From: Acerihabitans arboris
GTDB taxonomy: Bacteria > Pseudomonadota > Gammaproteobacteria > Enterobacterales > Enterobacteriaceae
Assembly (NCBI RefSeq): GCF_010131535.1
Contig: NZ_WUBS01000013.1
Coordinates: 124,001-188,000, forward strand
Length of the DNA: 64,000 nucleotides
Reading direction: 5' to 3'
Below the pieces are notes generated by a model. It had not been told where the DNA came from. It saw only the letters and a list, made by a program, of their open reading frames with translations, and ran no database searches. How positions within the stretch are numbered: the stretch's first letter is position 1; each line of letters begins with the position of its first letter. The translations under genes were made by a program, and so were the position numbers. Shown here one piece after another: positions 16,505 to 29,077 of the stretch.

Positions 16505-17671
16505 CTAGAATTTCTTTACCTCGATGTGCAGTTTCTTCAACGCGTAATAAAGCTGCCTGGGGGTGACATGGAGCAAACGGGCGGCTTTGGCCTTGACTCC
16601 GCCGCTTTTTTCCAGGGCGGCCACCAGGCGATAGCGCAAATCCTCATCATCGGCATGGGACGCGATGGTGGTCGCGGGCATGGCGCGCATCGTCTCCGCC
16701 GGCCATAAGGGCGCCGCCTGGGCGAAGGCCGCGTCGCCGCCCGGTTCCTGCGGGGCGGTCTCCTGCTGCCGGCTGATTTGCTGGTTCAGCCGCTGCCGGA
16801 AGCAGCGCCCGGACAGGCAGGGTAATTGATGGATCACATCCTCCCGGGCCTGTATGGCGGCATGCTCAAGGCAATTCTCGATATCACGCACATTCCCCGG
16901 CCAATGGCACAAATAGAGCGGCGCCTGCGCGTCCTCGGTAAGCGACAGCGTCATATGGTTAGCGTGGTTATAGCGTTCAAAAAAATAGTTCACCAAGCCG
17001 GGGATATCCTCTTTACGCTCACGCAGGGACGGCAGGGCAATGGTGGCGATATGGATGCGGTAATACAGCTCGGCAAGAAAAGTCCCCTGCGCCATCATCT
17101 GCTCCAGGTTTTTTTCCGTGGCGCAGATGATGCGGACATCGCTGGGCAGGGTATGTTTGCCGCCGAGCGGCTTGTACCGCTGCTCCTGTAAAATGCGCAG
17201 CAGCCGCTTTTGCAACGGCAGGGAAAAATGGCCGATTTCGCTGATAAACAGCGTACCGCCCGAGGCCAGCGAAATATCTCCGGGATAACCGGCGGCGCAG
17301 CCGGAAAACCCCGCTTCACACCCAAACAACTCCCGCAGGATGTCCTCGTTATCGAGATAATCGCAACAGACTTTGATAAACGGGCCGGCGCGATGTTGCG
17401 ACTGGATATGGATCGCCCGGGCGATGACATCCTTGCCGGTTCCAGGCTCGCCGCGCAGCAGCACCGCGGACCGGGTGGGCGCGATTTTTGCCACCGCCGA
17501 CAGGGTGCGCTTCATGGCAAAGGAATGGGCGATGATCTGATCGACCTCATGCCCGCCGCGCGCTTTGCGGGAGCCACCCCGGCCCGCCGGCCGGCAAACA
17601 TCATTGGCGCAGCGCGGGATGGCAATCCTACCCATCACGCCCCCTGCGGCGAGCTTGTCCGCACAATCCAT
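16505..17671 (-). CDS. Degenerate sigma-54 activator paralogue next to AnfA
   Basis: 388 residues resembling the AAA+ and DNA-binding parts of NifA/AnfA without a GAF sensor domain. Walker A is kept (GEPGTGKD, ~74-81), but the GAFTGA loop that contacts sigma-54 is reduced to GFSGC (~121-125) and the Walker B Asp is Ser (LFISE, ~141-145), so it probably can neither hydrolyse ATP normally nor remodel sigma-54 holoenzyme. The C-terminal helix-turn-helix looks intact (AARLLHVTPRQLYYALKKLHIEV). I chose the ATG at 17671, one base after the anfA stop and six bases after a GGAG; a GTG at 17683 would overlap anfA by 11 bases. Likely co-made with AnfA. It could be a DNA-binding modulator or competitor of AnfA, or a decaying duplicate; the intact frame argues for retained use. 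Confidence 0.85.
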   Translation of the reverse strand: MDCADKLAAGGVMGRIAIPRCANDVCRPAGRGGSRKARGGHEVDQIIAHSFAMKRTLSAVAKIAPTRSAVLLRGEPGTGKDVIARAIHIQSQHRAGPFIKVCCDYLDNEDILRELFGCEAGFSGCAAGYPGDISLASGGTLFISEIGHFSLPLQKRLLRILQEQRYKPLGGKHTLPSDVRIICATEKNLEQMMAQGTFLAELYYRIHIATIALPSLRERKEDIPGLVNYFFERYNHANHMTLSLTEDAQAPLYLCHWPGNVRDIENCLEHAAIQAREDVIHQLPCLSGRCFRQRLNQQISRQQETAPQEPGGDAAFAQAAPLWPAETMRAMPATTIASHADDEDLRYRLVAALEKSGGVKAKAARLLHVTPRQLYYALKKLHIEVKKF

Positions 17672-17672
17672 A

Positions 17673-19286
17673 TTAATCTCCACACCGGTAATCTTTATAG
17701 TTCAGCTGATATTTGGCCATGCGCAGGCCGAGCATGCGCCGGGTCAGGCCAAGCTGCGCGGCCGCCCTGGACATATTGCCCTGGAAGCGCGCCAGCGCCT
17801 CGACGATAAGCTCGTACTCCATCATGGATAAACGGGCTTCCAGGCCCGACTGCTCGCCCAGCTCGCCCAGCACGGCCGGCTGCAGGGCGGCGGGCAGGTG
17901 ATAGCTGTGGATCACCCCCTCTTCCGCCAGCAACACCGCCCGCTCCATCATGTTCTCCAGTTCCCGCACGTTGCCCGGCCAATCGTAGTTCAGCATTAGA
18001 TTAAGCGCGGGGGTGGAAATGGCGGGCACGTCAGCCTGCTGCTCTTTGGCAAACCAGGCGTTGAAATGTTCGGCCAGGATCAGGATATCGTTGCCCCGTT
18101 CGCGCAGCGGTGGAATGGTGATCGGGAAGACGTTCAGGCGGTAGAACAAGTCCTCGCGAAACGTGCCCTTGGCCACCATGGCGGTTAAATCACAGTGCGT
18201 CGCCGCCAGGATGCGCACGTTAACCTTGATCGATTCGTTGCTGCCCAGGCGCTCAAAGCAGCGCTCCTGGATAACCCGCAGCAGTTTGGCCTGCGCCGAG
18301 AGCGACAGTTCACCCACCTCGTCCAGGAAAATCGTGCCGCCGTCGGCTTCCTCGAACCGGCCTGCCCGCCGCGCCGCCGCGCCGGTAAACGCGCCTTTTT
18401 CATGGCCGAACAATTCGCTTTCGATCACGCTTTCCGGTAACGAGGCACAGTTGAATTTGACAAACGGGCCGCCGCCGCAGCTGCTGTTGTAATGAATGGC
18501 GCTGGCGACCCGTTCCTTGCCGACCCCGCTTTCACCGAGGATCAATACGGTGGTGCGGGCATGGCTGACCTTGTCGATCATCCGGTAAACCGACTGCATC
18601 GCCTTGGAATTGCCGATAATATTCGCCGGCTTGAATTTTTCCTTTAACTCTTTATCCAGCCGGGCGCTCTGGGCCTGCAATACCTGCTTATGGGCGCGCT
18701 CCAGCAAATGCAGTTCCACCGCCTGGGCGATAGTGGTGGCGATAATCGCCAGCACCTCCAGATCCAGGTAAAGCAGTTGCCGGTTATTGTATAAACGCTC
18801 CACCCCAATAGTCCCCATCACTTTCATCCCGCGCATAATGGGCACGCATATAAACGACAGACGGCAATCGACCGTTTTATCCCAGCTGCCGGTGCGATTG
18901 AGGAACAACGGCTCATCGGCAATCACCGGGACGATAATGGGCTGGCGGGTTTCCACCACTTTGCCGGTGATGCCTTCCCCCGGGTAATAAACGCCTTTTT
19001 CGATTTCATCCTTGGTCAAGCCGAAGCTTTCATGGATAAAAATCTGATCGCAACTGGCGTCGTAGAGCGAGATCATCGCCCGGGTGACCTGCAAATGTTT
19101 TTGCATCAGTTCCAGCACCAGCTTGAGCGTCTTGGATAAAGACCCTTCCCCGCTGACCACCTTGCTCACCTCGGACAACAGGGGCAGCAGCTCGGAGCGG
19201 CATTCACCCAGCTGGCAGGTAAAGGATAACGACTCGGCAAGCGTTGGGCGGGTGGTCGCCGGTTCATTTAAATTGATTGGGTGCAT
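17673..19286 (-). CDS. anfA: AnfA, sigma-54-dependent activator of the Fe-only nitrogenase genes
   Basis: Enhancer-binding protein that activates anfHDGK with sigma-54 RNA polymerase. 537 residues from the ATG at 19286, which follows an excellent GGAGGAAAGG site. N-terminal cysteine pair C24-x4-C29 (FTCQLGEC) as in AnfA/VnfA of Azotobacter, thought to bind an Fe-S centre; GAF domain roughly 30-185; AAA+ domain with Walker A GESGVGKE, intact EKGAFTGA, Walker B IFLDE and WPGNVRELENMMERA; C-terminal Fis-type helix-turn-helix (AAAQLGLTRRMLGLRMAKY). A perfect ModE box lies 62 bases upstream, so transcription should be shut off by molybdate. It sits 191 bases downstream of anfO, in the same direction. 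Confidence 0.94.
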   Translation of the reverse strand: MHPINLNEPATTRPTLAESLSFTCQLGECRSELLPLLSEVSKVVSGEGSLSKTLKLVLELMQKHLQVTRAMISLYDASCDQIFIHESFGLTKDEIEKGVYYPGEGITGKVVETRQPIIVPVIADEPLFLNRTGSWDKTVDCRLSFICVPIMRGMKVMGTIGVERLYNNRQLLYLDLEVLAIIATTIAQAVELHLLERAHKQVLQAQSARLDKELKEKFKPANIIGNSKAMQSVYRMIDKVSHARTTVLILGESGVGKERVASAIHYNSSCGGGPFVKFNCASLPESVIESELFGHEKGAFTGAAARRAGRFEEADGGTIFLDEVGELSLSAQAKLLRVIQERCFERLGSNESIKVNVRILAATHCDLTAMVAKGTFREDLFYRLNVFPITIPPLRERGNDILILAEHFNAWFAKEQQADVPAISTPALNLMLNYDWPGNVRELENMMERAVLLAEEGVIHSYHLPAALQPAVLGELGEQSGLEARLSMMEYELIVEALARFQGNMSRAAAQLGLTRRMLGLRMAKYQLNYKDYRCGD

Positions 19287-19347
19287 TAACCTTTCCTCCG
19301 CGTGGTTGCCTGCCTGGAAGAGAGTGTTGCAAGTTGGCGGCCACAAC

Positions 19348-19373
19348 TCGTTATATAATAAATTATATAACGA
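19348..19373 (-). promoter_or_regulatory. ModE-binding site in front of anfA
   Basis: Perfect inverted repeat TCGTTATATA - 6 bases - TATATAACGA, matching the ModE operator consensus (ATCGNTATATA-N6-TATATAACGAT). It lies 62 bases upstream of the anfA start and contains a TATAAT on the anfA strand, so bound Mo-ModE would block the promoter. Repression of anfA by ModE-type proteins is known from Rhodobacter capsulatus (MopA/MopB). A hairpin at about 19393-19420, between anfO and this box, has no T tract. Confidence 0.9.
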
Positions 19374-19477
19374 TATGATTTGCCATTATATTCCCGCAGG
19401 CCGACCGGCGGTCGCGGGAGCTTTGTATTAAAAACGACAATGGATAATCAACATTGTGCGATTTGGTACCCGGGATT

Positions 19478-20098
19478 TCAGGTCCGGTCCGGCAGGGGAA
19501 ACACCACGGCGTGGCAGCGGCCGTCGGCGTTTTGCGCAATCGTAAGCGCCAGCTTCAGCGCCGGCAGCTCACGTTGGAACCATTTCGGCAAATGGTCGCA
19601 GACGATCTCGATTTTTCGAAACGGCGTCTGGCGAAAAAAAGGCAGCAGGACCTGCTTAGAGGTCAAGGCGCCATCGCTTTTCAAAGCGTCGATCAGGTTG
19701 AGGTTATATTCCCCGTCGCCCTGCCCCGGCTTGATAAATCCCCGGGGAACCGCCGCCTGTTGGCGCTGGGCGTTCTCCTCCACGAACCGCTGGATGCGCG
19801 TCAGGAAACCGGCGGGTTCCCCGTTCAGCCGCCACATATGAATGCCCATGCCGTCAAAATACGACAGCAGGGCGCCGTGAATGGCGGTGGCGACAAAATG
19901 GCGGCAGCCGTCCAGGGCGGTCAACATCGTAAGCGTGCTGGTCCTGATTTCACTTAATCCCATCTGCTCATGCAAGGCAAACGGAATATCCCTTTCCTGC
20001 CGCCATCCATCGGCATCGGATTCATACACCCTGACGATGCCCGCCTGGTAAAGCGAGGCGGCGCGGCCGCCGGCATCGATAAATACCGCTATCTTCAT
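19478..20098 (-). CDS. anfO: AnfO, Fe-only nitrogenase accessory protein
   Basis: 206 residues, AnfO family, found only with anf-type nitrogenases and needed for Fe-only diazotrophic growth in Azotobacter; its biochemical role is unsettled. Recognised by the start MKIAVFIDAGGRAASLYQAG and the C-terminal FRKIEIVCDHLPKWFQRELP region. The start has a strong GGAGGGCAAG site and follows the previous gene by 13 bases, making it the last gene of the anfH operon. In Azotobacter anfO directly follows anfK; here two genes stand between. Confidence 0.85.
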   Translation of the reverse strand: MKIAVFIDAGGRAASLYQAGIVRVYESDADGWRQERDIPFALHEQMGLSEIRTSTLTMLTALDGCRHFVATAIHGALLSYFDGMGIHMWRLNGEPAGFLTRIQRFVEENAQRQQAAVPRGFIKPGQGDGEYNLNLIDALKSDGALTSKQVLLPFFRQTPFRKIEIVCDHLPKWFQRELPALKLALTIAQNADGRCHAVVFPLPDRT

Positions 20099-20111: not shown

Positions 20112-20618
20112 TCAAAAGCCGTGTTGTTTGCCCTTCATCGAGATGATATCGATGCGCAGCACCAGGGTGGCGCGCACATTGGCGGCGGGAAAGGTCCAGG
20201 CCTTATCGCTAAAGCGGGCGACAATCAGGTTAAGCGCGGCGATTTTTTCCGCCTCGTCCTGGATAAACACCGCGTTACCCAGGCCGATCACCGTGCGGTG
20301 CCTGGCCTCGAAATTACAGATCACCTCGTCTTCCACCACGCCCTGTTCGGTTGAAACGGCAAAACACAGGGTACTATTCCTTTTCAGCATCTCTATTTTG
20401 GTGCCGGCCCTGGCGGAATGGAAATAGAGCGACGTGCCGTCCCAGGCGTAAAATACCGGCACCATAAAAGGAATATCGTTCTCCGCCAGGGCGATATACA
20501 TTACCTTGGCCGACGCCAGGATGGCCGCTATTGCGGAGGGTTGCGTTATTTCCCGCTCATCGCGACGCATGGCGCCGTGCGGATGCCCCACCGGCGCGCG
20601 CGTGTCTGTCGACTGCAT
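20112..20618 (-). CDS. PNPOx/NimA-like split-barrel protein in the anf operon (Anf3 candidate)
   Basis: 168 residues from the ATG at 20618, chosen because AAGGAAGG lies five bases before it; a longer frame to 20690 has no such site. It resembles the pyridoxamine-phosphate-oxidase-like split-barrel family (REITQPSAIAAILASAKVMY, then FYAWDGTSLYFHSARAGTK, the NimA-type flavin/heme region). Anf operons of Azotobacter and Rhodobacter encode Anf3, a split-barrel protein carrying heme b and FAD with oxidase activity, thought to protect the Fe-only enzyme from O2. The operon position supports that role, but I identify it by fold and context only; cofactor ligands cannot be assigned by eye. It could instead be a general flavin-binding PNPOx-like protein. 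Confidence 0.65.
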   Translation of the reverse strand: MQSTDTRAPVGHPHGAMRRDEREITQPSAIAAILASAKVMYIALAENDIPFMVPVFYAWDGTSLYFHSARAGTKIEMLKRNSTLCFAVSTEQGVVEDEVICNFEARHRTVIGLGNAVFIQDEAEKIAALNLIVARFSDKAWTFPAANVRATLVLRIDIISMKGKQHGF

Positions 20619-20629
20619 ATATCCTTCCT

Positions 20630-21049
20630 TTATTGGGCCTGGGAACCCTGGGCTCCCAGAGCGGTTAATATCTCCGACAGCTCCCGGCAAATGGCGATAA
20701 TGCCAACCGAATCCGCCTGGGTCGGGGTGCCGTGATGGTAGTTTTCCAGCGAGCAGATACCGAAGATCTCATCCAGCGCGCGGATCCTGCGGCTTAATTC
20801 CGGCGCGAAGGGAATAACCTCCTCCGCCGTATCCATCAGGCTGGCATAGTTGTGGTTAAACGGCATGCTGCCGTACCAGGCGCAGAGCGCAATGAGATAA
20901 CACTCCACGGCAATCGACGCTACGTTGAATACCAGCCCCGGCGACTGCGCCTGTTCGGCGAACAGCACCGCCCGCCGGTGATAGCCTTCGGCATCATGGG
21001 ACAGCCGGATAAACTTTTGCCGATCGGATTCAAATAACAGTTTTGACAT
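20630..21049 (-). CDS. Small helical HEPN-like protein of the anf operon (AnfR candidate)
   Basis: 139 residues, all-helical, cytoplasmic. The pattern EGYHRRAVLFAEQA...FNVASIAVECYLIALCAWYG..PFNHNYASLM resembles HEPN domains (helix with conserved Glu, then a histidine before the third helix), but the RxxxxH ribonuclease motif is not seen, so it is more likely a binding or scaffold module than a toxin. It lies between anfK (34 bases upstream) and the split-barrel gene. Anf operons elsewhere carry small accessory genes (anfO, anfR, anf1-3); this may be AnfR, but I cannot confirm that from memory. Function unknown. Confidence 0.6.
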   Translation of the reverse strand: MSKLLFESDRQKFIRLSHDAEGYHRRAVLFAEQAQSPGLVFNVASIAVECYLIALCAWYGSMPFNHNYASLMDTAEEVIPFAPELSRRIRALDEIFGICSLENYHHGTPTQADSVGIIAICRELSEILTALGAQGSQAQ

Positions 21050-24489: not shown

Positions 24490-25482
<993 letters not shown>

Positions 25483-25524: not shown

Positions 25525-25765
25525 ATATGGGACTCTATAAATGCGAATTTAGTACATTCACGAACATTAACAAAAATAAAAGTTCATGCGCGTGTTTTAT
25601 CCGGAGCGGTGACCCGACCGGCCCGGCGCTTGATCCGTATCAATCCCGTTGTACCGCCGGTTGTGTTATTGGTGATACGTCCAGATCATAGGCAGCCGCC
25701 GGTGCCCGAGCGCCGGCGGCTGGTTAAATGGCGCATTATTCCCCTTATGCCAACGAGGCAACACC

Positions 25766-26614
25766 ATGCTTTTTCTTTCCGATCAAGAGCTGGATTCACT
25801 ACTGCTGGAAGATATCCGCTACGGCGACCTAACCACCCGCGCCCTGGGTATCGGCGCGCGCCGGGGCGTCATGACCTTTAGCCGGCGCACCACCGGGAAA
25901 GTCAGCGGCCTGGACGCCGCCGCGCGGGTCCTGCAACGGCTGGGGCTCAGCGTGGCCGTCGCCGGGGCCGACGGGCAGGTGGCGCCGGCCGGCGACCCGC
26001 TGTTAACCGCCGCGGGACCGGCCGACAGACTGCACCAGGGCTGGAAGGTGGCGCAAAACCTGCTGGAATGGTGCAGCGGCGTCGCCCAGGCCACCCACGA
26101 CCTGGTCGCCCTGGCGCAGTCGATCAATCCCCGGATGCAGATCGCCTGCACCCGCAAAACCATTCCCGGCACCAAAACGCTGGCGCTGGGCGCGGTAATT
26201 GACGGCGGCGGCACCTTGCATCGCTGCGGCACCGCGGATACGGTGCTGTTGTTCGCCAATCACCGCCATTTCTGCGCCGATCCGGCGGATTGGCGCCAGC
26301 ATGTGGCGACCCTGCGCCTTAGCGCGCCGGACCGGTTAATCGTGGTGGAGGCGGATAATGAAACCGAAGCCATGGCGGCGATAGACGCCGGCCCGGATCT
26401 GGTGCAGCTGGATAAATTCAGCCCCGGCGCGGTAAGCCGGGCGCTGGCCTATGCCAAAACCCAGGCTCCCGCGTGCCGGCTGGCGGTGGCGGGCGGGATC
26501 AATACCGGCAATATCGGGGAGTACGCCCGCACCGGCATTGAGCTGGCGGTCACCTCGATGCCTTACTACAGTCCCCCCGCCGATATCAGCGTCCGGCTGC
26601 ATCCCGTCCCTTGA
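25766..26614 (+). CDS. modD: ModD, quinolinate-phosphoribosyltransferase-like molybdenum-locus protein
   Basis: 282 residues, ModD family, related to nicotinate-nucleotide pyrophosphorylase (NadC). Seen: start MLFLSDQELDSLLLEDIRYGDLT, the LLEWCSGVAQATHDLV helix, ACTRKTIPGTKTLALGAVIDGGG (phosphoribosyl site) and VQLDKFSPGAV near the C-terminus. ModD genes occur in molybdate transport and alternative-nitrogenase loci; the precise reaction is not settled. It is divergent from anfH and convergent with the molbindin gene. It could be confused with NadC, but the RRTTGKVSGLDAAARVL start and the gene context favour ModD. Confidence 0.85.
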   Translation: MLFLSDQELDSLLLEDIRYGDLTTRALGIGARRGVMTFSRRTTGKVSGLDAAARVLQRLGLSVAVAGADGQVAPAGDPLLTAAGPADRLHQGWKVAQNLLEWCSGVAQATHDLVALAQSINPRMQIACTRKTIPGTKTLALGAVIDGGGTLHRCGTADTVLLFANHRHFCADPADWRQHVATLRLSAPDRLIVVEADNETEAMAAIDAGPDLVQLDKFSPGAVSRALAYAKTQAPACRLAVAGGINTGNIGEYARTGIELAVTSMPYYSPPADISVRLHPVP

Positions 26615-26711
26615 TACGACCCGCGTCAGCCGGCATCAGCTCGATGCCGCCACCAGACACCGCGGGCGCGGGCACCGGATCGTCTTCGGCGGTTTCGGTC
26701 CTTATTGGCGG

Positions 26712-27140
26712 TTATTCGTGGGTCGCCAGCACGATGCTGGACGCCTTGACCAGGGCGATCGCCTCGTCGCCTTCCTTGAGCCGCAGGCCGGCGACGCTCT
26801 CGTTGGTAATCACCGATACCAATGACATGCCGTCATCAATGGCCAGCGTCACTTCGCTGTTGATGGCGCCTTTGACGATATTGGTGATGTTGCCGGTAAA
26901 CTGATTGCGCGCCGAAAAACGCAGGCCGGTATCGGCGGCCGTCAGGATCACCCAGGGCGCCTTGATAAACGCGCTGGCCTCGCCGCCCACGCGCAGCTCG
27001 AGATATTGCACGCTGCTGTGGGTAATAGTGGCGACCAGCGCCTTGCCGCCAGGCAGGGTGAGTTCTACTTCATCATTAACCGCGCCTTTGACAATAGCGG
27101 TAACGGTGCCGGTGAGATGGTTTCTTGCGGATGTCAGCAT
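26712..27140 (-). CDS. Molbindin with two Mop domains (ModG/Mop type)
   Basis: Cytoplasmic molybdate-binding storage/homeostasis protein made of two tandem ~68-residue Mop (TOBE) domains: SARNHLTGTVTAIVKGAVNDEV and SARNQFTGNITNIVKGAINSEV. 142 residues from the ATG at 27140, the length of Azotobacter ModG; GGAG lies six bases before it, and the longer frame to 27194 adds residues with no homology. It lies between modD and modA, divergent from modA, with the ModE-like box in the shared promoter region. Confidence 0.9.
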   Translation of the reverse strand: MLTSARNHLTGTVTAIVKGAVNDEVELTLPGGKALVATITHSSVQYLELRVGGEASAFIKAPWVILTAADTGLRFSARNQFTGNITNIVKGAINSEVTLAIDDGMSLVSVITNESVAGLRLKEGDEAIALVKASSIVLATHE

Positions 27141-27331
27141 ATTCTTCTCCAGGAGGTTAAAGGAAGCATGGGCAAATATTATTACCCGTGCCAATTATCC
27201 AGCAACTTTTGTGCCATCTATCCCTAACGCTGTTGATGTGCATTATAAAAATTATCATCGCACAACGACCGAATAGTCCATTAATATTTTGGTAAATTTA
27301 AACCCTTGATCTTTGGAAATACCGGCCGCTA

Positions 27332-27359
27332 TTGTTATGTAATTTTTTATATAACGGTA
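27332..27359. promoter_or_regulatory. ModE-like box before modA (shared with the molbindin gene)
   Basis: TTGTTATGTA - 7 bases - TATATAACGG: the right half matches the ModE consensus exactly, the left half has two or three changes. It ends 10 bases before the modA start, a position suited to repression of modAB by Mo-ModE, and lies about 190 bases from the divergent molbindin gene. Confidence 0.7.
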
Positions 27360-27369
27360 GCCAATATCA

Positions 27370-28311
27370 ATGAACAGAAACTTTTTGTATAGGGTGGTTT
27401 TGTTAAGCGCACTGGGGACATTTTCCAGCCCCGGCGCGCGGGCGGCGGATGATATCCGCGTCACCTACGCCGGATCTATGGGGGTGGTGATGGATAAATA
27501 TCTCGGCCCCGCCTTTGCCAAGGAACGGCACCTTACCTACCAGGGACAGGGGCAAGGGGCTTATGGCATGGCGCGCCTGCTGGCCTCGAAAAAAATCGTC
27601 GCCGACGTGTTTGTCTCCATCACCCCCGGACCGATGGATATCCTGCAACAGGCCGGTCTGGTGGATCAGGCCGTGCCGGTGGCCAGTACACGCATGGTGA
27701 TCGTCTATAATCCCAAAAGCAAATTCGCCCCCGCCTTTGAAACCGCTAAACACGCCCCTCCGGGTGACGGCGCCACCGCCTGGTGGAAAGTATTGCAATC
27801 GCCGGGACTGGTGTTCGGACGCACCGACCCGGTTAACGATCCGCAGGGGCAGAATATTATCTTTACCATGCTGCTGGCGGAAAGATATTATCAGCAGCCG
27901 GGGCTGGCCCATAAGGTGCTGGGGGATGTGCAGAACCCGAAACAGGTTTTCGCCGAAGGCGGTTTGCTGACGCGCATGGAGTCGGGACAGGTGGACGCGG
28001 CGTCCGGCTATGAAAGCGCCACTATTTCTGCCAAATTGCCCTACATCACCCTGCCGGATGAAATTAACCTGAGCAACCCCGCCATGTCGAAAGACTGGTA
28101 CGATAAGGTCAGCTTCCCGGTAAAAGACGCCGCCGGACAAGAAAAAACCCTGCATACCCAGCCGCTGGTATTTTATGCCGCGGTATTGAACAATGCCCCG
28201 GATGCCGCCCAGGCACGTAAATTTATCGCCTATATGCAAAGCCAGGCCGGGCAGGATCTGTTGAGGCAAAACGGCTATGGGCAACCCAAAGGCGGGTCGC
28301 TTTATCATTAA
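27370..28311 (+). CDS. Periplasmic molybdate/tungstate-type binding protein (ModA/WtpA-like)
   Basis: 313-residue solute-binding protein with a signal peptide (MNRNFLYRVVLLSALG..., cleavage near GARA-ADD). The mature start IRVTYAGSMGVVMDKYLGPAFAK and GQGAYGMARLLASKKIVADVFVS fit the molybdate/tungstate (ModA/WtpA/TupA) group of binding proteins. It lies between molbindin and a ModB-like permease and behind a ModE-like box, which supports oxyanion uptake. Whether molybdate or tungstate is preferred cannot be read from the sequence. Confidence 0.8.
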   Translation: MNRNFLYRVVLLSALGTFSSPGARAADDIRVTYAGSMGVVMDKYLGPAFAKERHLTYQGQGQGAYGMARLLASKKIVADVFVSITPGPMDILQQAGLVDQAVPVASTRMVIVYNPKSKFAPAFETAKHAPPGDGATAWWKVLQSPGLVFGRTDPVNDPQGQNIIFTMLLAERYYQQPGLAHKVLGDVQNPKQVFAEGGLLTRMESGQVDAASGYESATISAKLPYITLPDEINLSNPAMSKDWYDKVSFPVKDAAGQEKTLHTQPLVFYAAVLNNAPDAAQARKFIAYMQSQAGQDLLRQNGYGQPKGGSLYH

Positions 28312-28333
28312 CCGCTGCAGGATACCCCGCCAG

Positions 28334-29077
28334 ATGACGGCCCGCTGGCTGGCGCTGCCCGCGCTGCTGTTATTGGCCCTGCCGTTTATCACCCTGGTGG
28401 GCGTAACGCCCTGGCGTGATTTCCACCTGGCCTATGGCGACTGGGGATCGGTTTGGGTCTCACTGGGACTGAGCGGCATCTCCATGCCGCTGATTATCCT
28501 GTTGGGCGCCCCCCTGGCGCTATGGCTGGCGCGCACGGCGTCGCCCATGCGCCATTGGGTCGAAATCATGGTGCTGGTACCCCTGCTGACCCCGCCGCTG
28601 GCGTTGGGCATACTGCTGGTATCCGTCTATGGTCCTTACGGCACGCTTGGCGGGTTGTTAACCCGGCTCGGCCTGTCATTGACCAATAACGCCGGCGCGT
28701 TCGTCATGGCTCAGGTCTACGGCGCGCTGCCCTATTTTGTCATGTCGGCGCGTTCGGCCTTTGCCGCCGTCCCGCCGGAGGTGGAGGACGCGGGTAAAAT
28801 ACTGGGCGCGTCCTCCTGGCAGATCCTGACCCGGCTGACGCTGCCGCTGGCCCGCCAAGGCCTGGCCACCGGCCTGGCGATTGCCTGGGTCAGGGTGGTT
28901 GGCGAATTCGGTATCGTCCTGGTCTTTTCCTATTTTCCTCAGGGGATCCCGGTCAAGCTGTATATCAACCTGCAAAATGACGGGGTGGACTCGGTCTATT
29001 CACTGCTATGGCTACTGCTGGCGGTGACGCTGCCTTTCCCCGTAGGGTGCCTGACACGCTCGCGCCGTAGACCCTAA
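28334..29077 (+). CDS. ModB-like ABC transporter permease
   Basis: Inner-membrane permease of the molybdate/tungstate/sulfate type, about five to six membrane segments and a good EAA loop (PPEVEDAGKILGASSWQILTR) followed by VRVVGEFGIVLVF, typical of ModB. I use the ATG at 28334 (247 residues, GCAGGA upstream); an in-frame start at 28277 would overlap modA. The ATPase gene (modC) that should follow is missing: the next gene is an oppositely oriented toxin gene ending 4 bases away. The ATPase must come from elsewhere, or the transporter is not functional. Confidence 0.82.
   Translation: MTARWLALPALLLLALPFITLVGVTPWRDFHLAYGDWGSVWVSLGLSGISMPLIILLGAPLALWLARTASPMRHWVEIMVLVPLLTPPLALGILLVSVYGPYGTLGGLLTRLGLSLTNNAGAFVMAQVYGALPYFVMSARSAFAAVPPEVEDAGKILGASSWQILTRLTLPLARQGLATGLAIAWVRVVGEFGIVLVFSYFPQGIPVKLYINLQNDGVDSVYSLLWLLLAVTLPFPVGCLTRSRRRP

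Follow-up and report, generated by a model that had tools for sequence, protein, structure and literature searches.

A conserved, probably non-catalytic NifA-like protein encoded directly behind anfA in enterobacterial Fe-only nitrogenase loci

Most work on how control is handed over from the Mo- to the Fe-only nitrogenase concerns Azotobacter and purple bacteria. In Azotobacter vinelandii, AnfA autoactivates the sigma54 promoter of anfA and the paralogous activator VnfA1 is reported to repress anfA (PMC9542535). VnfA1 and VnfA3 are also reported to bind each other and to share sites (PMC9542535), an arrangement in which a second bEBP tunes the alternative nitrogenases. In NifA of alpha- and beta-proteobacteria two cysteine pairs, one at the end of the AAA+ domain and one at the start of the linker, act in redox sensing according to PMC10590331, which also mentions a proposed metal cluster. 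Loss of the sigma54-contact loop from a bEBP has been described for GAFTGA-less NtrC of Rhodobacter and Caulobacter and for VspR of Vibrio, which act at sigma70 promoters (PMC10274813).

The window analyzed here, a stretch of 64,000 nucleotides from Acerihabitans arboris, carries a cluster in which anfH, anfD, anfK, an ORF of 139 residues, a gene for a Pyridox_ox_2 protein, anfO (19478..20098, by NCBIfam), anfA (17673..19286) and the gene for the protein here called P (16505..17671) follow one another in one direction; all coordinates refer to the minus strand unless stated otherwise. The P gene was delimited by translation, by NCBIfam and Pfam models and by its homologues. It starts with ATG at 17671, separated by one base from the anfA stop codon ending at 17673, and encodes 388 residues in an open frame, as the initial annotation had described. 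Pfam detected the Sigma54_activat, AAA_lid_14 and HTH_8 domains in P but no GAF domain, whereas the adjoining AnfA has GAF, AAA+ and helix-turn-helix (HTH) domains with GAFTGA and Walker motifs intact (NCBIfam, Pfam and alignment). Alignment of P revealed a Walker A motif GEPGTGKD with its lysine kept (residues 74-81; 17429..17452), an L1 loop GCEAGFSGCA replacing the GHEKGAFTGA of AnfA (residues 117-126; 17294..17323), and a Walker B motif LFISEIG (residues 141-147; 17231..17251) in which Asp is replaced by Ser and Glu is kept, FISE compared with FLDE in AnfA. Thus, the absence of the GAF domain, the loss of GAFTGA, the Walker B substitution and the retention of Walker A and the HTH all stand as that annotation had them. 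Further along, FLAELYYR replaces FRxDLYYR (residues 198-205; 17057..17080), with arginine finger R162 and D164 gone and R168 retained. The NifA-type HTH occupies residues 352-388 (16508..16618), as located by Pfam and by HTH identity. An AlphaFold model of P was of middling quality with a mean pLDDT of 65.8; in blocks of ten residues, most of the AAA+ core scored in the 70s to 80s and the HTH about 60-74, with values below 50 for residues 1-41, 120-126 (the L1 loop), 253-256 (the first cysteine) and 287-342 (the linker). Foldseek searches with the model returned the AAA+ domains of activators, namely FleQ (6jdi, E 1.4e-25), NtrC1, PspF and the NifA in 9qq6.

P was present in five of six genomes of the host genus (E 1e-60), the exception having a completeness of 83%, and a sample of 198 family genomes contained it in four. 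The anfD gene exceeded the cut-off in 14 of 392 family genomes sampled, seven with P (E 1e-70) and seven without. Two narrow peptide patterns applied to 84,980 species genomes returned 11 loci, of which eight were P, two (L038 and L039) were full-length NifA-like proteins and not P, and one (L040) was assigned to neither. The eight genomes are titled Enterobacterales MAG bin_27, Sodalis sp. dw_96, 'Martelella alba' BGMRC 2031, Brenneria roseae, Rahnella sp. AA, 'Serratia marcescens' 1001295B, Brenneria sp. 4F2 and Enterobacter sp. 10-1. Once overlaps between samples were removed, ten distinct genomes carried P, that of the window and nine others. P lies directly after anfA in all ten at a gap of -11 to +3 nt, and every copy is open. 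The same Ser, the loss of GAFTGA and the Walker A lysine are found in all, and copies 47-71% identical to that of the window share the substitutions and the cysteines described below. Seven anf loci are without P. A short remnant follows anfA in one of them (L047), and in the remaining six the only match to P is anfA itself.

The extent to which the catalytic apparatus is lost was evaluated by aligning P from all ten genomes with 62 activators comprising 15 AnfA, 42 NifA and five others. The residues matching N64, D107, R162 and D164 of PspF are gone in all ten P, with N64 replaced by C, S, G or A, D107 by S, R162 by L and D164 by E. The position of E43 is D in every copy, neither GAFTGA nor the Walker B DE is kept in any, and the L1 loop varies among copies. 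P retains K42, E108, R168 and the sensor II arginine, so that of the intact ATPase site of an active sigma54 activator (N64, D107, E108, R162, D164 and R168) only E108 and R168 are kept in the ten copies. All 62 comparison activators retain N64, D107, R162 and D164 together with the tabulated G, F, T and G of GAFTGA. A filter naming the letters GAFTGA had selected 38 of the 62 rows, and the comparison was therefore repeated without that demand; each of the 58 rows obtained has G-x-F/Y-TGA, the Walker B DE and the NC of N64, and 56 fit a strict RxDxxxR, the two misses (L003 and L091) showing R, D and R in the alignment. L071 (GAYTGA) and L077 (GSFTGA) had been excluded by the first filter through a variant, not a lost, loop. 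The tabulated GAFTGA and Walker B positions are kept in 42 of 42 NifA, and three NifA were seen with GSFTGA or GAYTGA. The AnfA rows exclude L050 and L053, and the NifA rows exclude L097 and L100-L105 as well as L040, L070, L071 and L077, which gave no row under the filter; the filter-free repeat yielded no row for L004, L008, L040, L053, L070, L073, L081 and L088. In PspF, the D107A, R162A and D164A replacements are reported to leave no more than about 0.6% of the wild-type ATPase rate, and N64Q about 4%, R162 being named the arginine finger (PMC3419264). Since all four residues are lost from P and the corresponding PspF mutants are defective, P is very probably unable to hydrolyze ATP or remodel sigma54 polymerase, although it may still bind nucleotide.

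The family profile places P closest to NifA. The best NCBIfam model was nifA (TIGR01817), covering the AAA+ and HTH domains with 342.5 bits, below the curated cut-off of 528.85, and four other P scored 278-328 bits. Within its own genome P matched the NifA locus best (40% identity, plus 54% over the HTH), while the neighboring AnfA, a further AAA+ protein from the same gene cluster, was 39% identical over the central domain only and ranked fourth among the other activators of the genome. A plasmid collection contained 2273 records matching P, all below 60% identity, and 36 of the 40 matches listed were annotated nifA, from Rhizobium, Sinorhizobium, Mesorhizobium, Cupriavidus, Paraburkholderia and kin. 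In a tree of 60 rows, from which seven near-duplicate rows and the outgroups had been dropped, P grouped with the cysteine-type NifAs with support of 98/96, and the placement persisted when HTH and cysteines were removed (97/94). The AU test did not reject P and AnfA as one clade (p 0.066, or 0.175 without HTH and cysteines); descent from the resident enteric NifA was rejected (p 1.8e-5). The HTH of P is closest to that of 15 cysteine-type NifAs at 63% identity, compared with 58% for 27 other NifAs, among which one cysteine-type row (phNifA_L083) is counted, and 30% for AnfA. P has neither the HTH nor the GAF domain of AnfA, which also retains all motifs lost from P. The initial annotation had called P a tandem AnfA paralogue, an origin not borne out by the profile, the best match to the NifA locus, the trees, the differing HTHs or the cysteines; since the AU test leaves kinship with AnfA possible, a plain duplication of anfA is weakened and not disproved. 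P is probably no AnfA duplicate and instead allied to the cysteine-type NifAs of alpha- and beta-proteobacteria, a NifA-side origin that is well supported by these comparisons but not exclusive.

The likeness to cysteine-type NifA extends beyond the best matches of the AAA+ and HTH domains. P contains four cysteines at the end of the AAA+ domain and in the linker, recognized by motif comparison as a first pair C-X11-C (residues 255 and 267; 16871..16909) and a second pair C-X4-C (residues 285 and 290; 16802..16819), and some cysteine-type NifAs resemble P in a C-terminus such as IEVKKF or IEVRRF. The motif C-X11-C-X17-C-X4-C is present in all ten P and C-X11-C-X19-C-X4-C in 16 of 42 NifAs, the third cysteine of P being two residues nearer. 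No cysteine motif was found in 15 AnfA or in 12 NifAs of anf-bearing enterics; in this survey, three of the five outgroup rows were lost to the Walker A pattern. Unlike cysteine-type NifA, P has neither GAF nor GAFTGA and has lost the Walker B Asp, the arginine finger, D164 and N64. By analogy with these NifAs, the cysteines of P could possibly sense iron or redox state. In the host genome nifL adjoins an enteric-type nifA, beside which P could act as a sensor of another type.

Where P might bind was approached through the promoters of anfA and anfH. TGT-N10-ACA is given as the NifA consensus and TAC-N6-GTA as the AnfA consensus in alpha-proteobacteria, and GTAC-N6-GTAC is proposed for VnfA (PMC7294313). 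Pattern matching in the anfA-P promoter of the window revealed a NifA-type upstream site TGTCGTTTTTAATACA (19424..19439) 96 bp upstream of a sigma54 -24/-12-like element TGGCCGCCAACTTGC (19329..19343). Between them lies an inverted repeat CGTTATATAATTTATTATATAACG with perfect 10-bp arms (19349..19372), which presumably resembles a ModE (molybdenum) box. The survey was extended to 16 related loci, nine with P and seven without, and the counts are not independent since the loci are related. TGT-N10-ACA occurs in the anfA promoter of 16 of 16 loci, where dinucleotide shuffles predict 1.59, and 15 of these promoters have a sigma54-type element. In 13 of the 15, 96-98 bp separate the proximal TGT-N10-ACA from the sigma54 element downstream of it; in L030 and L052 the sole site is at 125 and 127 bp. 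A composite TGTWC-N6-GWACA, a pattern picked after viewing the sequences, is found in 12 of 16 loci (0.04 expected). It is missing from the window and from L030-L032, the four loci with the inverted repeat CGTTATATA...TATATAACG between site and promoter (4/4, the L031 copy imperfect; 0/12 elsewhere). The anfH promoter of the window has a sigma54-like element (25381..25396) and a dyad GTTCGTGAATGTAC (25552..25565), the presumed AnfA site, both by pattern match. A sigma54 element is present in all 16 anfH promoters and a GWWC-N6-GWWC dyad, likewise chosen after inspection of the promoters where TGT-N10-ACA and TAC-N6-GTA were taken from the literature, in 15. The strict TAC-N6-GTA occurs in just 4 of 16, the window's not among them, which leaves the dyad a putative AnfA site. 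No anfH promoter of the 16 contained TGT-N10-ACA (1.21 expected); action of P at anfH through NifA-type sites is unsupported. In the stretch of the host's own nif contig, two of five strict sigma54 matches have TGT-N10-ACA within 260 bp upstream. The initial annotation had envisaged a catalytically dead, DNA-binding partner of AnfA, which fits the broken ATPase and sigma54 apparatus, the kept DNA-binding domain, the constraint on the sequence and the encoding together with anfA. Its picture of an AnfA copy competing at AnfA sites does not fit a NifA-like HTH whose type of site is in every anfA promoter surveyed and in no anfH promoter.

We propose that P, as a pseudo-ATPase, descends from cysteine-type redox-sensing NifA or is its sister; in P the fold, nucleotide-binding lysine, four cysteines and NifA-type HTH are kept and the GAF domain and the sigma54-remodelling apparatus are gone. 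The existence, next to anfA, of a conserved and, on alignment, non-catalytic protein related to cysteine-type NifA is solid as an observation; the mechanism is put forward as a proposal. The P gene lies close enough behind anfA for coupled translation, by which P would be made with AnfA. Our tentative preference, with chances just short of even, is that P would compete at NifA-type TGT-N10-ACA sites without activating, and would in this way act as a brake. P is predicted to occupy first the TGT-N10-ACA of the anfA-P promoter, where it would restrain AnfA- or NifA-driven anfA expression in a role like that of VnfA1, and second the nif promoters, where it would lower Mo-nitrogenase transcription while the Fe-only system is active. 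Through its cysteines, P would adjust promoter occupancy to iron or the redox/oxygen state, in either direction. All seven loci without P have TGT-N10-ACA in the anfA promoter, which argues that the sites serve another factor, NifA or AnfA, first. The comparison with Azotobacter extends to VnfA1 curbing anfA autoactivation, whereas no dead ATPase is described for VnfA1 or VnfA3 in the available part of PMC9542535, and P is NifA-like and GAF-less. In its widest form the proposal is more speculative, possible rather than probable: P would be a natural dominant-negative NifA that several enterobacterial genera maintain next to anfA. As a pseudo-ATPase sensing redox state or iron, it would occupy NifA-type enhancer sites, damp anfA, switch off Mo-nitrogenase genes during production of the Fe-only enzyme and give enterics of the NifL type a second, cysteine-based oxygen or iron input. 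If true, a dead NifA relative beside anfA would be devoted to braking or to cross-talk between nitrogenases, and P would exemplify, in nature, an enhancer-binding protein of which only the sensing and DNA-binding parts remain. Such a protein would matter as well for the engineering of nitrogenases, in which the small gene set makes anf a favored system. A literature search of titles and the beginnings of abstracts, a weak negative given that subscription papers were largely uncovered, returned no description of the P gene.

The main rival explanation, which we consider rather unlikely, is that P enters mixed oligomers with AnfA or NifA, whether poisoning them or serving conditionally as a co-activator subunit, as suggested for VnfA1 and VnfA3, and that DNA binding is secondary. 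The position of the P start relative to the anfA stop in all ten genomes is in accord with this explanation, as are the AAA+ fold of the model and the retained sensor II arginine, and interactions among nitrogenase bEBPs have been reported (PMC9542535). With the Walker A lysine, Glu108 and R168 kept, there is room for nucleotide-dependent oligomers instead of plain site competition. However, R162 and D164, the trans residues that face the site of the neighboring subunit, are gone from P, and its AAA+ domain groups with NifA and not with AnfA in trees, for which the AU test is not exclusive.

The nearby sites of the HTH type found in P sit in sigma54-type promoters. This location speaks against regulation by P of ordinary sigma70 promoters in the manner of GAFTGA-less NtrC or VspR, an explanation that shares with P the loss of the GAFTGA in L1 (PMC10274813) and that we regard as quite improbable. 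Those proteins differ from P in being response-regulator types with a phosphorylation-site Asp (PMC10274813). Caulobacter NtrC moreover keeps and needs the Walker B Asp (PMC10274813), which P lacks, as it does N64, D164 and the arginine finger; since ATP is reported to be dispensable for VspR (PMC10274813), the loss of this Asp from P is not decisive against sigma70 promoters.

Selection was evaluated from dN/dS in pairs of P genes. Omega was 0.154 (95% interval 0.094-0.226), 0.172 and 0.143 in three bootstrapped pairs with upper bounds below 0.25, values that indicate purifying selection, not neutral decay. AnfA in the same pairs gave 0.029, 0.083 and 0.048, the omega of P being two to five times higher. 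Two wider pairs with dS above 1 gave 0.20 and 0.24 for P, and the pair L035/L037 was saturated and uninformative. For the HTH of P, omega was about 0.04 in both pairs whose dS was usable; the N-terminus and the linker are loosely constrained. Seven of 14 anfD genomes sampled are without P, so P is dispensable in many lineages; taken together, these comparisons suggest that P is constrained but dispensable, and lost at least in some lineages. It is very unlikely that P is a relic in the course of being lost, under residual constraint only: the higher omega, the variable L1 loop, the absence from half of the anfD genomes sampled and the remnant in genome G019 would suit a relic, but ten of ten open frames, a strongly constrained HTH and the same substitutions and cysteines at 47-71% identity would not. 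That P serves as a decoy, drawing NifL or a PII protein away from NifA while the Fe-only system runs, is hardly credible, for although nifL lies beside nifA in the same genome and a structure of the NifL-NifA complex exists (9qq6), P has no GAF domain and falls outside the enteric type of NifA.

Several minor observations were made on the anf loci and the genomes that carry them. The 139-residue ORF (20630-21049, minus) matched no NCBIfam or Pfam model, the Pyridox_ox_2 gene occupies 20112-20690 (minus), and ORFs like these two recur at the same spot between anfK and anfO in other enterobacterial anf loci. Published listings give anfA, D, F, G, H, K and O for Kosakonia radicincitans (PMC6125372) and mention anfU and anfT in Azotobacter (PMC9310841). 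The locus from the genome titled Martelella alba BGMRC 2031 (L032) is enterobacterial-looking, and that strain has been described as Bruguierivorax albus (PMC7864827). In L053 (genome G376) anfD was read with one internal TGA and the anfA promoter has no strict sigma54 match; this anf cluster may be decaying. Genome G171 (L048) has anfD over the cut-off and no nifA match at E 1e-170, and perhaps runs its Fe-only system without the usual NifA. Genome G001, of the host genus, has two NifA genes over the cut-off (L065 and L071), the second with GAYTGA. Divergent from anfH in the window, 25766-29077 (plus) encodes modD, a WtpA-like/SBP_bac_11 binding protein and a permease, a probable molybdate or tungstate uptake system beside the Mo-free nitrogenase.
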